DNA from: Anaerolineales bacterium
Lineage (GTDB): Bacteria > Chloroflexota > Anaerolineae > Anaerolineales > UBA11657
Assembly (NCBI GenBank): GCA_022450585.1
Contig: JAKUPR010000011.1
Span: 1 to 40,604 of the forward strand
Direction of reading: 5' to 3'
DNA: 40,604 nucleotides
Under the pieces are notes generated by a model. That model did no database searches. It was not told the DNA's origin and worked only from the letters and a program-made list of their open reading frames with translations. The position numbers and the translations under genes were made by a program. Below are positions 10,312 through 15,775 of this stretch, one piece after another (within the stretch, counting starts at the first letter, position 1; each line of letters starts with the position of its first letter).

Positions 10312-12162
10312 CTAATAGAACGCTGTGCGCAACACAGGCTGAAATAATTCCTTCTTATGGGCACATACGAGATCCAGAGAGCATGAGCTGCAATCCGGTA
10401 CATGCATCTCCGGACAACGCCGTCTGGCATTGAAAAAGAACCAGTCTACCGCTGCCATACTTTTTCCAGAAAGTTCCACCAGTTGCATAAGCGCATCATG
10501 GGAAGCACGACGGATTGCCCACTCATCTGCAGCAGGAATCAACCGTCGCTCGACGAGAGATCGACGCAAACTTGTATCCAAAACATCAACGAGACCAACA
10601 CGTAAGCAGGATCGCATCAGATGATAATCAATAATCGGGGGCAAACTCTCATCTGCACCAATACGCAGGAATTTTTCCGGGCGCTCACTTAGAATCAGTG
10701 CTAGCAGCACCGACTTCTTACGCAACACGTCCTCTTTGTATCCACCAATATGGTCAAGCCCGGTTAAGAACGAAAGCAGCGGCTTATGGCTGCAGTTAGC
10801 TCTAGCCACAATGTCCGACGGCGATAGACCTATTGATAACATGTCGTACCCATATGCGCGCGCTTGCTGCAGTCGCATCCGGCGCGCCGGCATCGGATCA
10901 GTGCCATCATCAGCACGCAATATGATACGAAGCCTTTTGGATGTCATACTGTACTGACCTGTCGACGAAAATAATTCGGGCGTATCTGTATACGCACGCA
11001 TCATAGCATGCCACAAATAATCAGATCCTTTGCGATGTGCACCATCTATAGGTGCAAGCAGGGGACGCCAGTAACGACCGGACCGCGCCTGCCAGAAACC
11101 GAACTGTTGTAAAGTCGCCGCGAAGAAAAATTCCAGTGCACCAGAGGCACCCACCTTCGGAAAACCCGGTCCGACAAAAGCGAATGGGTGTACATTCTCC
11201 ATACCTGCCAGAAGCTCAGCTACGGCAGATATCCGCTCTTGACACAGTGAGACACGTCGATCCATTTGTGGCCCGGGCAATATTCCAGAGTTCCAAAGCG
11301 CACGTGGTCCCACCGCTGTGACTACCTGCGCCGCTACGAATTGGGCCGCAGAAGCTGCGCGGAGCGGATGGTCTCCATTCGCCAGACGAGCCAACGTGGC
11401 CCCACAAAAAGCGTCACCAGCACCGGTCGGATCAAGTTCAGACGCCGGTTCCACAGGGATTAACGTCTCATGCTGACCCTGCCAAACACGTACGCCCCTG
11501 TGACCAAAAGTAACAAATAGAAGTTTGCCCGACTCGGCTTTCACGGCGTCCAAACTCCCGAACATGCCTAAGGCCTCGTGCTCATTCATAAAGAAAATAT
11601 CTGCCTTCTGAATAAGTCTATGCACAGCCACTGTTTCATGCCGGACAACACGTCCATACGTCCCCACAGAGATCAAACGCGCACCACGTTGACGACACGA
11701 ATCGAGGAATTCCAATTGACGCCAAGCACTACTCAGTGCAGCTATGTGCACTAGCTCGCATCCAGAAAGATCCGCGGGCAAATCTCCGGGTCTAAGTTGT
11801 GACTCAGAACCCCACTCTGCCGAGTCCAGGGTGGCTACACCTGCACCATGATGAGTAATCTCAAAATGCGGTAAACGTAGAGGGCTAACTTTTGGGCCGA
11901 ACCAAGTTATCCGTTTTGCTGCAGCCTGCAGCGCCTCGGGCATCGGATGCGGCAGTGGCGCAAACATGGCAACCTGTGCTCCCACCCGATGTGCAGCTGC
12001 CGCCGTGTACATTCCCGCACCACCAGCAGAACGTTCAGTCCGACCCCTAAAATGCAGCTGGTCCAGCGACGCCCCACCGACTACTAGCACGTCAGCTGTG
12101 AGACGCCGAGCGCCTACGAATTCAGGGCCCACACTATTCGTAACCCCTCGAGCGTCAGCCAC
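10312..12162 (-). CDS. Fusion protein: PfkB/ribokinase-family kinase plus C-terminal Cys4 (HhH-glycosylase-like) domain
   Basis: N-terminal VLVVGGASLDQLHF...GGAGMYTAAAAHRVGA and DPTGAGDAFCGATLA (PfkB signature 2). C-terminal ~300 aa ends CPEMHVPDCSSCSLDLVC (C-x7-C-x2-C-x5-C). GTG start at 12162 overlaps coaX; a GTG at 12132 is also possible. Confidence 0.8.
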   Translation of the reverse strand: MADARGVTNSVGPEFVGARRLTADVLVVGGASLDQLHFRGRTERSAGGAGMYTAAAAHRVGAQVAMFAPLPHPMPEALQAAAKRITWFGPKVSPLRLPHFEITHHGAGVATLDSAEWGSESQLRPGDLPADLSGCELVHIAALSSAWRQLEFLDSCRQRGARLISVGTYGRVVRHETVAVHRLIQKADIFFMNEHEALGMFGSLDAVKAESGKLLFVTFGHRGVRVWQGQHETLIPVEPASELDPTGAGDAFCGATLARLANGDHPLRAASAAQFVAAQVVTAVGPRALWNSGILPGPQMDRRVSLCQERISAVAELLAGMENVHPFAFVGPGFPKVGASGALEFFFAATLQQFGFWQARSGRYWRPLLAPIDGAHRKGSDYLWHAMMRAYTDTPELFSSTGQYSMTSKRLRIILRADDGTDPMPARRMRLQQARAYGYDMLSIGLSPSDIVARANCSHKPLLSFLTGLDHIGGYKEDVLRKKSVLLALILSERPEKFLRIGADESLPPIIDYHLMRSCLRVGLVDVLDTSLRRSLVERRLIPAADEWAIRRASHDALMQLVELSGKSMAAVDWFFFNARRRCPEMHVPDCSSCSLDLVCAHKKELFQPVLRTAFY

Positions 12163-12878
12163 GGAGCCACAACCTGAATGACACTAGTTTCACGCGCCAC
12201 CGTCTCTGCTAATCCTCCAGTACCAATTACCTGCATCTCTGGACCGAGCTCTGCGCCAAAACGCTCCACCATTCCCTCCACAAGACCCGCATAACCATAA
12301 AGCAGTCCAGATTGAATAGCATTGGGTGTGTTACGACCAATAGCAGCGGGCGGCGGCACCAAGTCAACACGCGGCAATTTAGCTGCTCGCTGGAAGAGTG
12401 CATCCGCAGCAATTTCTATTCCAGGTGCAATAGCACCTCCCAAGTATTCTCCCGCCGCGGAAACAGCATCGAAGGTTGTAGCTGTGCCGAAATCGACAAT
12501 GCATGCTGGACATCCATATAGCGAACGCGCAGCAGCAGCATCCACCACACGGTCTGCACCCACCTGTCGAGGGTCATCGTAACGTATGGGCACACCGGTC
12601 TTCACGCCAGCATCCACCACCAAGGGCTCCTGATGCAAATAATCCCTGCAAATATGTAGAAAAACACCGGTCAGAGGCGGCACTACTGAGGCTATAGCCA
12701 CGGCAGCAATATCATCTCTAGAAATACTCCCATGCTGAAAAAATCCGAGCAACTGCAAACCATATTCGTCACCAGTACGACCACGTGCGGTTTCCATACG
12801 CCATCGAGGTCCAAGGGTCTCTCCGGTGAAGACACCCACAGTGATATGTGTGTTACCAATGTCTATTGCCAAAAACAT
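12114..12878 (-). CDS. coaX: Type III pantothenate kinase
   Basis: MFLAIDIGNTHITVGVF; VVDAGVKTGVPIRYDDPRQVGADRVVDAAAARSLYG; IVDFGTATTFDAVS; GGAIAPGIEI. Confidence 0.95.
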   Translation of the reverse strand: MFLAIDIGNTHITVGVFTGETLGPRWRMETARGRTGDEYGLQLLGFFQHGSISRDDIAAVAIASVVPPLTGVFLHICRDYLHQEPLVVDAGVKTGVPIRYDDPRQVGADRVVDAAAARSLYGCPACIVDFGTATTFDAVSAAGEYLGGAIAPGIEIAADALFQRAAKLPRVDLVPPPAAIGRNTPNAIQSGLLYGYAGLVEGMVERFGAELGPEMQVIGTGGLAETVARETSVIQVVAPWLTLEGLRIVWALNS

Positions 12879-12890
12879 AATTGCTCCTTT

Positions 12891-13730
12891 TTAAGTCTCG
12901 CCCAGTACCATATTGTCAATCAGAACAACCTGACCAATGCACACGGCCAGACTGGCCAATACTTGCTCCGGCAGCTGCCTCAAATCCTGCAGTGTCTCTA
13001 CCTCTGTAATAGCTATATAACGAGCATCTGCTAATGGCTCAGTCGCAACTACATCCGACATCAGACCACACAGCTTATCTCCGTCCCGCTGTCCCTCTGC
13101 AAATGCTACGCTAGCAGCACTCAGTGCACGAAACAAAACAGTGGATGCCTGGCGCTGGTCCACACTCAAACGTGCATTGCGAGAGGAAAGTGCCAAACCA
13201 TCCGACTCCCGTACCGTTGGGCATGTTACCACCTCCACAGGAAAGCCAAGATCAGCCACAAGCCGACGCACCACGCAGACCTGCTGCGCATCTTTCTGTC
13301 CGAAATAGGCACGATCAGGCCTAAATGCAATAAGAAGCTTAGAAACTATCGTGGTCACCCCACGCATGTGCCCAGGACGACGCCCACCTTCCAGGCCACT
13401 CGTGAGTTGATTCACAGTCACGTATGTCTGATACCCATGCGGATACATCTCCGATCTGTCTGGTGCCCAAACCAAGTCAACGTTGTGAGTATCCAACAAA
13501 TCCAAATCCCGCTCGAGGTCACGCGGGTAATCGTCTAAATCATCGACCGACTCGAACTGAGCTGGGTTGACGAAAATGCTTGCAGCAACAAACTCATTCT
13601 CAGCGCGAGCAGACTGCACCAACGAGAGATGACCGCGATGCAAATATCCCATTGTAGGAACCAAACCAAGTGACCCTGTGAATGTAGCCCGTGCTGATCG
13701 TAATTCTAATAGCGTCTTGACTATCTTCAT
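12891..13730 (-). CDS. panC: Pantothenate synthetase
   Basis: VPTMGYLHRGHLSLVQ, SIFVNPAQF, YFGQKDAQQ, TVRESDGLALSSRNARL. Confidence 0.97.
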   Translation of the reverse strand: MKIVKTLLELRSARATFTGSLGLVPTMGYLHRGHLSLVQSARAENEFVAASIFVNPAQFESVDDLDDYPRDLERDLDLLDTHNVDLVWAPDRSEMYPHGYQTYVTVNQLTSGLEGGRRPGHMRGVTTIVSKLLIAFRPDRAYFGQKDAQQVCVVRRLVADLGFPVEVVTCPTVRESDGLALSSRNARLSVDQRQASTVLFRALSAASVAFAEGQRDGDKLCGLMSDVVATEPLADARYIAITEVETLQDLRQLPEQVLASLAVCIGQVVLIDNMVLGET

Positions 13731-13737
13731 GATTCAT

Positions 13738-14649
13738 TTATTGGCTGCGCGCAGCACGCACCAACTTGCAGAGCATGTAGTTCACTGGAGCAGGCACTCC
13801 ATGCAGCGCGGCCTCACGCACTATGGCACAATTTATCGACTCTATTTCGGTTAGTTCTCCACGACGCATATCTTGCAACATTGACGAATAATTACTAGCC
13901 GTCGCCTGAGCAACCATTATTACCTGTTCAGAAACGTCAAATGGAATCTCAATCCCCAAGGCAGCGGCTACGGCCTCGGTCTCTTCGGCCGCAGCAATCA
14001 TCAGTCCACGTGCATCCGGGCGGGAGAGCAGCTCACCATTAGTGATATCAAGCAGTGCGGTCAACGCATTGATGCCAGAGCTGACAGCAAGTTTTCCCCA
14101 GAGCACTGGTTCCAACTCACAGGTCAAAATAGTCGGAAAACCAGCCGTCTCAAACAAACCCGCCAGGCCTTGCAAGCGCTCGTCCATGCACTCCCGTAGC
14201 GCTAGGTAAGTGTCCCCTCCACCACTGTAACGCACATGGCCGGGAGACAGTAGAGCCGCTCCCTGCGTCGTTACGCCGGCAACCGCACGTTTCACACCCA
14301 CTCTTTCTTCCAATACCTCCAAGTTACCCAGTCCGTTCTGAAGCGTAACAACTATCCCATCGGGAGCAAGAACTAACGATGCCAAGCTGGCAGCCCGTTC
14401 GGTCTGCCAGCTTTTTACCAGCAGCAACGCCACCGACGCGGGTGCAAATTGCTGTGGATCCTCGCCAACACTCACCTGAACCGTATCTACAATGTCGTTA
14501 GCTTCAATACAGATTCCTCTTTTACTTATTGCTTCCATGCTCTGAAGCCAACTTCCCAGAAGACAGACATCAGAATGTGGTGCCAACCGCGCACCAAAAA
14601 GACAGGCCATCGCACCGGTGCCAATGATCGCAACACGCATATATGCCAA
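13738..14649 (-). CDS. panE: 2-dehydropantoate 2-reductase
   Basis: MRVAIIGTGAMACLFGARL, LLLVKSWQT, TLQNGLGNLE, VLWGKLAVSSGINALTAL. A start at 14640 (MRVAIIG) is also possible. Confidence 0.93.
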   Translation of the reverse strand: MAYMRVAIIGTGAMACLFGARLAPHSDVCLLGSWLQSMEAISKRGICIEANDIVDTVQVSVGEDPQQFAPASVALLLVKSWQTERAASLASLVLAPDGIVVTLQNGLGNLEVLEERVGVKRAVAGVTTQGAALLSPGHVRYSGGGDTYLALRECMDERLQGLAGLFETAGFPTILTCELEPVLWGKLAVSSGINALTALLDITNGELLSRPDARGLMIAAAEETEAVAAALGIEIPFDVSEQVIMVAQATASNYSSMLQDMRRGELTEIESINCAIVREAALHGVPAPVNYMLCKLVRAARSQ

Positions 14650-14651
14650 CC

Positions 14652-15551
14652 TTAGGAGTGCTTGCCGCTAGGCCGCAGGTCTTCTAGACTATCTATAAAC
14701 GTCTGCCATTCATCGTCCGGTATACCAAATGTATGTTCTGCACCTGGAAAATCACGCCGTCCGACTTCATCCCGATACCTCTCAAAAGCATTTAACATCT
14801 CCACGCGCAAATTGGAGTATTTTTTTACGAACCGGGGCGTGAAGCGATCAAAAAGACCTAGTAAATCGTTGCTAACCAACACCTGACCGTCACAGCCAGA
14901 ACCTGCACCGATTCCAATTGTGGGAACATTCAACCACTCGGAGATAAGCGTGGCCACCCGACCCGGAACCGCTTCTAGCACAATCGCAAAACACCCAGCT
15001 TTCTCTAGCGCAATAGCATCATCCAGAAGCGCACGCGCTGTGTTCGAGCTGCGACCCTGAACTCGGAATCCGCCCAGCTGATGTATTGCTTGTGGTGTCA
15101 ATCCAATATGACCCATTACTGGAATACCGGCTTCCACAATGGCACGCACGGTGGAAGCCATGCGACGACCACCTTCAAGCTTTACGCTGTCCATACCAGC
15201 ATCACTCAGAAATCTCCCCGCATTGCGCACAGCCTCAGATACATCCACCTGATATGAGAGAAAAGGCATGTCTCCGGTCATGAAAGCCCGCTTAGAGCCA
15301 CGCGCCACCGCGCGGCAATGATGCAACATTTCGTCCATTGTCACTGGAAGTGTGTTTTCATACCCTAGAACTACCATGGCCAATGAATCCCCAACCAAGA
15401 TTAGATCAACCCCAGCTGCATCAGCCACGCGCGCAGTAGGATAATCATATGCAGTCACCGCAACAATCGGATCACTGCAGTCTTTTTTATCTTGCAATGT
15501 TGCCAAGGAAATCTTGCTATTCGATGAATCGGATGGCACTTGTTGGCTCAC
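14652..15551 (-). CDS. panB: 3-methyl-2-oxobutanoate hydroxymethyltransferase
   Basis: VAVTAYDYPTARVADAAGVDLILVGDSLAMVVLGYENTLPVTMDEMLHH, VMGHIGLTPQ, PTIGIGAGSGCDGQVLV; GTG start with GGAGGAG SD. Confidence 0.97.
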   Translation of the reverse strand: MSQQVPSDSSNSKISLATLQDKKDCSDPIVAVTAYDYPTARVADAAGVDLILVGDSLAMVVLGYENTLPVTMDEMLHHCRAVARGSKRAFMTGDMPFLSYQVDVSEAVRNAGRFLSDAGMDSVKLEGGRRMASTVRAIVEAGIPVMGHIGLTPQAIHQLGGFRVQGRSSNTARALLDDAIALEKAGCFAIVLEAVPGRVATLISEWLNVPTIGIGAGSGCDGQVLVSNDLLGLFDRFTPRFVKKYSNLRVEMLNAFERYRDEVGRRDFPGAEHTFGIPDDEWQTFIDSLEDLRPSGKHS

Positions 15552-15592
15552 GCTATCTCCTCCTGTTTCAGTGTAATGCTAATTTCATACAT

Positions 15593-15620
15593 AAAAAAAG
15601 CCCTCCATCGCATGAAGGGC
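15593..15620 (-). terminator. Intrinsic terminator in the panB leader (attenuator-like)
   Basis: Minus strand GCCCTTC-ATGCGAT-GGAGGGC followed directly by TTTTTTT, about 40 nt upstream of the panB start and co-directional with it. Confidence 0.8.
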
Positions 15621-15739
15621 CGGTAACCTAATTGCATCTAAGCGAAACACCTGGGTATCTCCACCTACCCACGGATGTCACGCTGATTACATCACACTTT
15701 TGTTATCCAGCCGTCTCGCTCAAATTTGATGCAAGCGAC
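15593..15739 (-). ncRNA. Candidate structured leader (riboswitch/attenuator) upstream of panB
   Basis: Closing helix TTGCATC (15734-15728) with GATGCAA (15638-15632), continued by AGCGA (15720-15716) with TCGCT (15645-15641); internal hairpins GATGT/ACATC and TGGGTA/TACCCA; terminator at the 3' end. Family not assigned. Confidence 0.6.
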
Positions 15740-15745
15740 AACTTT

Positions 15746-15775
15746 AGTATAATTGCTGGAACATCCATCCGTCAA
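15746..15775 (-). promoter_or_regulatory. Sigma70-type promoter for panB operon
   Basis: Minus strand TTGACG (15775-15770), 18-nt spacer, TATACT (15751-15746). Confidence 0.65.

Follow-up and report, generated by a model that had tools for sequence, protein, structure and literature searches.

A divergent pan-motif leader with a single hairpin, apparently coupled to a transcription terminator, before a pantothenate/CoA operon of Anaerolineales

Introduction

The pan motif (RF01749) is an RNA with two bulged adenosines that occurs in three phyla, mostly in tandem, in association with panB, panC or panD (Weinberg et al. 2010, PMC2864571). The same authors considered that it is perhaps the site of a dimeric protein. 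In another paper, RF01749 was also placed before the panB operon of Paenibacillus. According to an RF01749 search of open-access full text, apparently no ligand or mechanism has been assigned to the motif since 2010. Moreover, the open-access literature searched yielded no description of pan RNAs before coaX or ECF transporters, nor of a split arrangement. B. subtilis has a pan RNA of its own. Coenzyme A (CoA) has been named in reviews as a blind spot, for which no riboswitch is available (PMC10043782, PMC9971707).

The leader described here is located on a 40,604-nt stretch of DNA from an Anaerolineales bacterium (contig JAKUPR010000011.1), hereafter called the window. Like the pan motif, it possesses two conserved bulged adenosines and conserved core letters, and it lies before pantothenate genes. 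Unlike RF01749, the window contains one canonical hairpin, not a tandem, at the predicted 5' end of the transcript; it scores below the Rfam threshold, and in its relatives, a second hairpin is found on the Shine-Dalgarno sequence. Two further differences are the explicit antiterminator and terminator and a gene set that, across the class, adds transporters and coaX. The competition of a small leader structure with a terminator is reminiscent of attenuating metabolite riboswitches, for example HMP-PP/thiS (PMC6478431), but the direct binder could here be a protein.

Results and Discussion

Operon and Promoter

On the minus strand, panB, panE, panC and coaX form one gene run, together with a PfkB-like gene (Pfam assignments; Table 1). 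The promoter found by the scan is followed by a structured leader of ~146 nt and an intrinsic terminator, 5' of panB-panE-panC-coaX. The sequence-only reading that preceded this analysis had reported this promoter, this leader and a terminator before panB, and all three are present on the minus strand. The leader folds better than its shuffled counterparts (z = -3.84), only one out of 200 shuffles being as good. On the plus strand, a divergent promoter-like site (TTGATG-16-TATAAT, 15726-15753) overlaps the promoter and faces an M29 peptidase gene.

Table 1. Features of the pantothenate operon and its leader in the window.
Feature	Position	Strand	Evidence
Promoter TTGACG-18-TATACT	15746..15775	-	Promoter scan; spacing across leaders
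Pan-type hairpin: lower stem GUCG/CGGC, 5 bp CUUGC/GCGAG, bulged A at 15730 and 15714, upper stem UCA/UGA, loop	15710..15739	-	RF01749 match, R1 model, covariation
Putative antiterminator, 5' strand GGCUGGAUAAC, GGC shared with the pan lower stem	15702..15712	-	Comparison and folding
Spacer between the antiterminator strands, containing two local hairpins (GATGT/ACATC; TGGGTA/TACCCA)	15628..15701	-	Sequence differs in family relatives
Putative antiterminator, 3' strand GUUACCGGCC, its final three bases also beginning the terminator stem	15618..15627	-	Comparison and folding
Intrinsic terminator: 9-bp stem GCCCTTCAT/ATGGAGGGC, loop GCG, T7	15593..15620	-	Scan; class-wide recurrence
Degenerate Shine-Dalgarno pan-like hairpin, GC AUUAC A CU..AG GAGAU A GC, one middle-stem mismatch	15552..15579	-	Comparison with relatives
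panB, ketopantoate hydroxymethyltransferase, GTG start at 15551	14652..15551	-	Pfam PF02548, E = 2e-114
panE, ketopantoate reductase	13738..14649	-	Pfam PF08546/PF02558
panC, pantoate-beta-alanine ligase	12891..13730	-	Pfam PF02569
coaX, type III pantothenate kinase	12114..12878	-	Pfam PF03309

Identity and Conservation of the Pan Hairpin

At the gathering threshold, the Rfam scan of the window returned two tRNAs only, and no match in the leader. At a permissive E-value, the best match in the leader is the pan motif, with 25.5 bits (E = 0.016 for the stretch), below the gathering score of 36.2 bits, which is a curated cut-off and not a biological feature. In the alignment, the model's second hairpin is matched in full, both bulged adenosines included, and the first falls on the promoter; the score stays under the threshold because the leader has one hairpin of the usual tandem. 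Tandem examples from the class reach 36.0 and 31.4 bits against RF01749, just below the cut-off, and one lies above it with 47.1 bits. The tandem is a trait of most, not all, pan members: the window combines one canonical hairpin with a degenerate second one over the Shine-Dalgarno sequence. Its placement, upstream of a panB/panC/panD operon, is that of the pan motif. The pan motif had already been named as a candidate family, correctly so, as it is the best match and covaries in 52 leaders (see below). Folate, another suggestion of the sequence-only reading, is unsupported as a ligand: no Rfam folate (THF) match was obtained in the leader, even at the permissive E-value.

For the comparison, panB upstream regions were taken from genomes of the same order and from a set of named genomes with many Anaerolineae/Chloroflexi. 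A descriptor consisting of a lower stem, 5 bp, a bulged A on each strand and an upper stem finds the pan hairpin in more than 50 panB leaders. When 52 distinct copies are aligned with MAFFT, 95.6% of the cells are paired, a percentage that partly reflects selection, since the descriptor selects for pairing, and double changes are seen in 10 of the 11 pairs. The covariation score of these panB leaders is 0.572, compared to 0.196 after shuffling and at most 0.102 in slid registers. The Rfam match and the consistent placement are independent of the descriptor's selection for pairing. A covariance model, R1, built from panB leaders only and run on whole genomes, gives the window's hairpin 36.8 bits (E = 7e-6), the only match in this genome. 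The panB paralogue that some genomes carry as a second copy (46-49% identical, L060-L067) has no pan hairpin. The leader is a divergent single-hairpin variant of the known pan RNA; it is real and functional-looking, and the variant form of the motif is the new part.

In nearly all leaders of the same order, the -10 box lies ~7 nt 5' of the three inner pairs of the hairpin's lower stem, according to the spacing comparison; hence, the pan hairpin should mark the start of the transcripts. This fixed position beside the promoter would also suit a DNA operator, the inverted repeat after the -10 box then being the site of a transcription factor and not an RNA element. We consider this very unlikely, as G-U pairs are common (28 of the 52 copies at one position), the loop length is highly variable and both sides keep a bulged A. 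At other loci of the class, the hairpin has a terminator after it and often another hairpin before it; the antiterminator partner is conserved as well.

A different architecture had been drawn from the sequence, with a closing helix (TTGCATC/GATGCAA plus AGCGA/TCGCT) around the hairpins GATGT/ACATC and TGGGTA/TACCCA. All these letters exist in the leader, but the closing helix is not conserved in the family relatives, and nothing comparable is found in five leaders of the family: the window scores 17, and the five leaders 9-13.5, with their best partial helices involving unrelated partners. The closing-helix fold is also 3 kcal/mol worse than the fold with the pan hairpin and the terminator. 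The pairing of AGCGA with the TCGCT at the 5' end, proposed as the alternative to this helix, is the conserved pan hairpin.

Terminator and Antiterminator

The 5' strand of the putative antiterminator begins two bases past the bulged A on the 3' side; it reads GGCUGGA... and belongs in part to the pan lower stem. In each of the six family leaders that have a terminator, the pairing partner of this strand ends 2-4 nt within the 5' arm of the terminator, and the letters change from one leader to the next. The window pairs GGCUGG/CCGGCC plus UAAC/GUUA; in the family, the pairs are GGCUGGACA/UGUCUGGCC (L058), GGCUGGAUG/UGUCCAGCC (L019) and GGCUGAA/UUUAGCC (L057). In another family, unrelated letters are found at the same place (CGGUAGACA/UGUCUGCCG). 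The summed antiterminator score of the window's family is 106.5, against 21.2 for shuffled flanks, and that of the other family 65, against 34 (0/2000 as good in both). In a small, mixed set of further panB leaders, an antiterminator at the same register is unsupported (p = 0.64). The anchored score over the whole class amounts to 336.5 vs. 207 (0/1000 as good).

Terminator-like sites occur within 130 nt 3' of the hairpin at 49 of 65 class loci, where 0.3 would be expected. One could ascribe the terminator to an unrelated small transcript, panB being transcribed from a promoter further downstream. This is extremely improbable: the scan detected no minus-strand promoter-like site in the interval between the terminator and panB, and the layout of hairpin and terminator is conserved throughout the class.

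In a transcript ending before the 3' arm of the terminator, the full antiterminator is the best predicted fold (-44.4 kcal/mol, vs. -40.9 kcal/mol for the fold that keeps the pan lower stem closed). Once complete, the leader favours the pan hairpin together with the terminator (-54.9 vs. -49.2 kcal/mol). The folding and shuffle results therefore point to a three-way competition between pan hairpin, antiterminator and terminator, in which a stabilised pan hairpin should favour termination. As in an attenuator, a mutually exclusive antiterminator and terminator precede the coding region, as judged by comparison and folding only. The leader is apparently coupled to the terminator, and the earlier proposal, a regulatory leader containing a premature terminator, is supported. 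The mutually exclusive folds proposed with it hold as well, but with other partners: the competitor of the pan lower stem is an antiterminator absent from that proposal. We infer the polarity of this putative switch from these predictions.

A Second Hairpin over the Shine-Dalgarno Sequence

In many relatives, the Shine-Dalgarno sequence of panB is located inside a hairpin of pan geometry, with the form GC-AUCUC-A-CUC..GAG-GAGAU-A-GC or GG-nCCCU-A-CC..GG-AGGGn-A-CC. It is present at 25 of 56 panB starts with the first hairpin, compared to 7 of 1613 other Shine-Dalgarno/start sites, related sequences not being independent in this count. Covariation was counted on type I alone, a joint alignment of both types being out of register. 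Four pairs show double changes, and the score is 0.129 vs. 0.084 (0/500 as good; slid registers at most 0.073); the first middle pair of this type is often non-standard. The form is that of the upstream hairpin of the classical tandem pan RNAs of the class (GC-CACCG-A-CC..GG-CGGUG-A-GC). The pan geometry is shared, so the tandem looks split in this order, with one hairpin at the transcript start and one on the ribosome-binding site. The degenerate copy of the window (Table 1) is matched by an intact one in a relative of the same genus (L058).

Hairpins that can lie so far apart, at the 5' end and on the Shine-Dalgarno sequence, fit separate protein sites. Whether the binding partner of the pan hairpin(s) is a protein rather than a metabolite is evenly balanced in our judgment; the RNA architecture would work as proposed in that case too. 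The hairpin is small (~30 nt), with two bulged adenosines, and usually paired with a second one, and protein binding was suggested for the tandem motif by Weinberg et al. On the other hand, no candidate binding protein was found, and the operon has no visible RNA-binding gene. Direct sensing of CoA or a near precursor, the pan RNA being a riboswitch and, in this order, a split device acting on terminator and ribosome-binding site, is possible but doubtful.

Genes under the Pan Hairpin in the Order and the Class

Within the order, all R1 matches with E <= 3.5e-4 are located at panB, at coaX in a genus without panB/panC, or as an extra copy a short distance 5' of a panB that bears a hairpin itself. 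There are two such extra copies. In L009 (G050 contig C347, ~position 218), a pan hairpin stands directly before a DUF4058 gene, which is followed by a panB with a copy of its own. Weak matches (E > ~0.01) away from panB fall mostly within coding regions and were dropped as noise, and L267 of the class scan is probably of the same kind. In the sister genus g3, which belongs to the window's own family, panB and panC are missing from G003 (95% complete), G005 and G007. The pan hairpin heads coaX-coaBC in G003 and G007 (L165, L164), where it may simply have remained after panBEC had been deleted.

Across the class, 65 of 200 genomes have an R1 match at E <= 0.001. Among the 65 loci inspected, 19 hairpins precede panB and 28 precede ECF transporter genes (ATPases or the S component; representatives assigned by Pfam/NCBIfam, the remainder by BLAST clustering). 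A SBP_bac_5 binding protein follows at nine loci (eight genomes), a PhnD-type protein at two, PTS IIB at two and coaX at one. The latter locus carries a tandem pan, an antiterminator and a terminator. The other loci of the 65 are unassigned. The S component (PF12822; L222, L238, L242, L247, L251, L257 and L259, in addition to 21 EcfA loci) matches the general ECF family only, and no solved structure matched it. The SBP_bac_5 proteins, of the oligopeptide type (L205, L211/L262, L227, L228, L241, L244, L260 and L261), are possible transporters of pantothenate or of a CoA precursor. The PhnD-type proteins are found at L206 and L210, and the PTS IIB proteins, of the mannose/sorbose type, at L233 and L254. 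In L228, a Moco riboswitch match (1771-1882) is just short of its threshold (35.8 bits, cut-off 36).

The hairpin before transporters and pantothenate kinase in the relatives suggests a response to CoA supply, not to a pathway intermediate. These genes plausibly share pantothenate supply and CoA commitment, the substrates of the transporters being presumed, which would place the signal at or below pantothenate, most simply at CoA. Sensing of pantothenate itself or of an intermediate of its de novo synthesis (ketopantoate, pantoate), with coaX associated incidentally, would be consistent with the window, where the hairpin heads panB-panE-panC, and pantothenate repressing its own synthesis and uptake is a simple scheme. 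Yet, ~21 of the 65 hairpin-bearing class genomes (hand count) have no panB and use the hairpin on transporters. In addition, coaX is directly under the hairpin in two distant families, and a kinase repressed by its own substrate makes little sense. Sensing at this level is, in our view, rather unlikely. The de novo intermediates, put forward as ligands by the sequence-only reading, are disfavoured by the persistence of the hairpin on coaX and transporters where panB is missing. End-product repression at the level of CoA is most likely.

Proposed Mechanism

The pan-motif leader probably controls the pantothenate/CoA operon by transcription attenuation, a CoA-level signal leading to termination. 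The transcript would start with the pan hairpin. In the absence of the signal, the GGC on the 3' side of the pan lower stem, together with its flank, would pair with GUUACCGGCC, occupying the base of the terminator, and read-through would follow. The signal, CoA or a CoA-level effector acting directly or via a protein, would stabilise the closed pan hairpin and hold the GGC. The antiterminator would then be shortened and the terminator could form, switching off panB-panE-panC-coaX. In many relatives, the second hairpin would hide the Shine-Dalgarno sequence of panB, giving the same OFF polarity at the level of translation. We likewise infer the identity of the effector and its direct or protein-mediated binding. 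Comparison shows the pan hairpin, the promoter position, the terminator, the family antiterminator, the Shine-Dalgarno hairpin of the relatives and the gene set.

Conclusions

The expanded gene set, with coaX, ECF and other transporters and genomes lacking panB, narrows the effector to pantothenate or a later compound, most simply CoA. The antiterminator and terminator pairings define specific mutations to test. Of the class members examined, most go undetected by the Rfam model, and the placement of the hairpin points to candidate pantothenate-related transporters.
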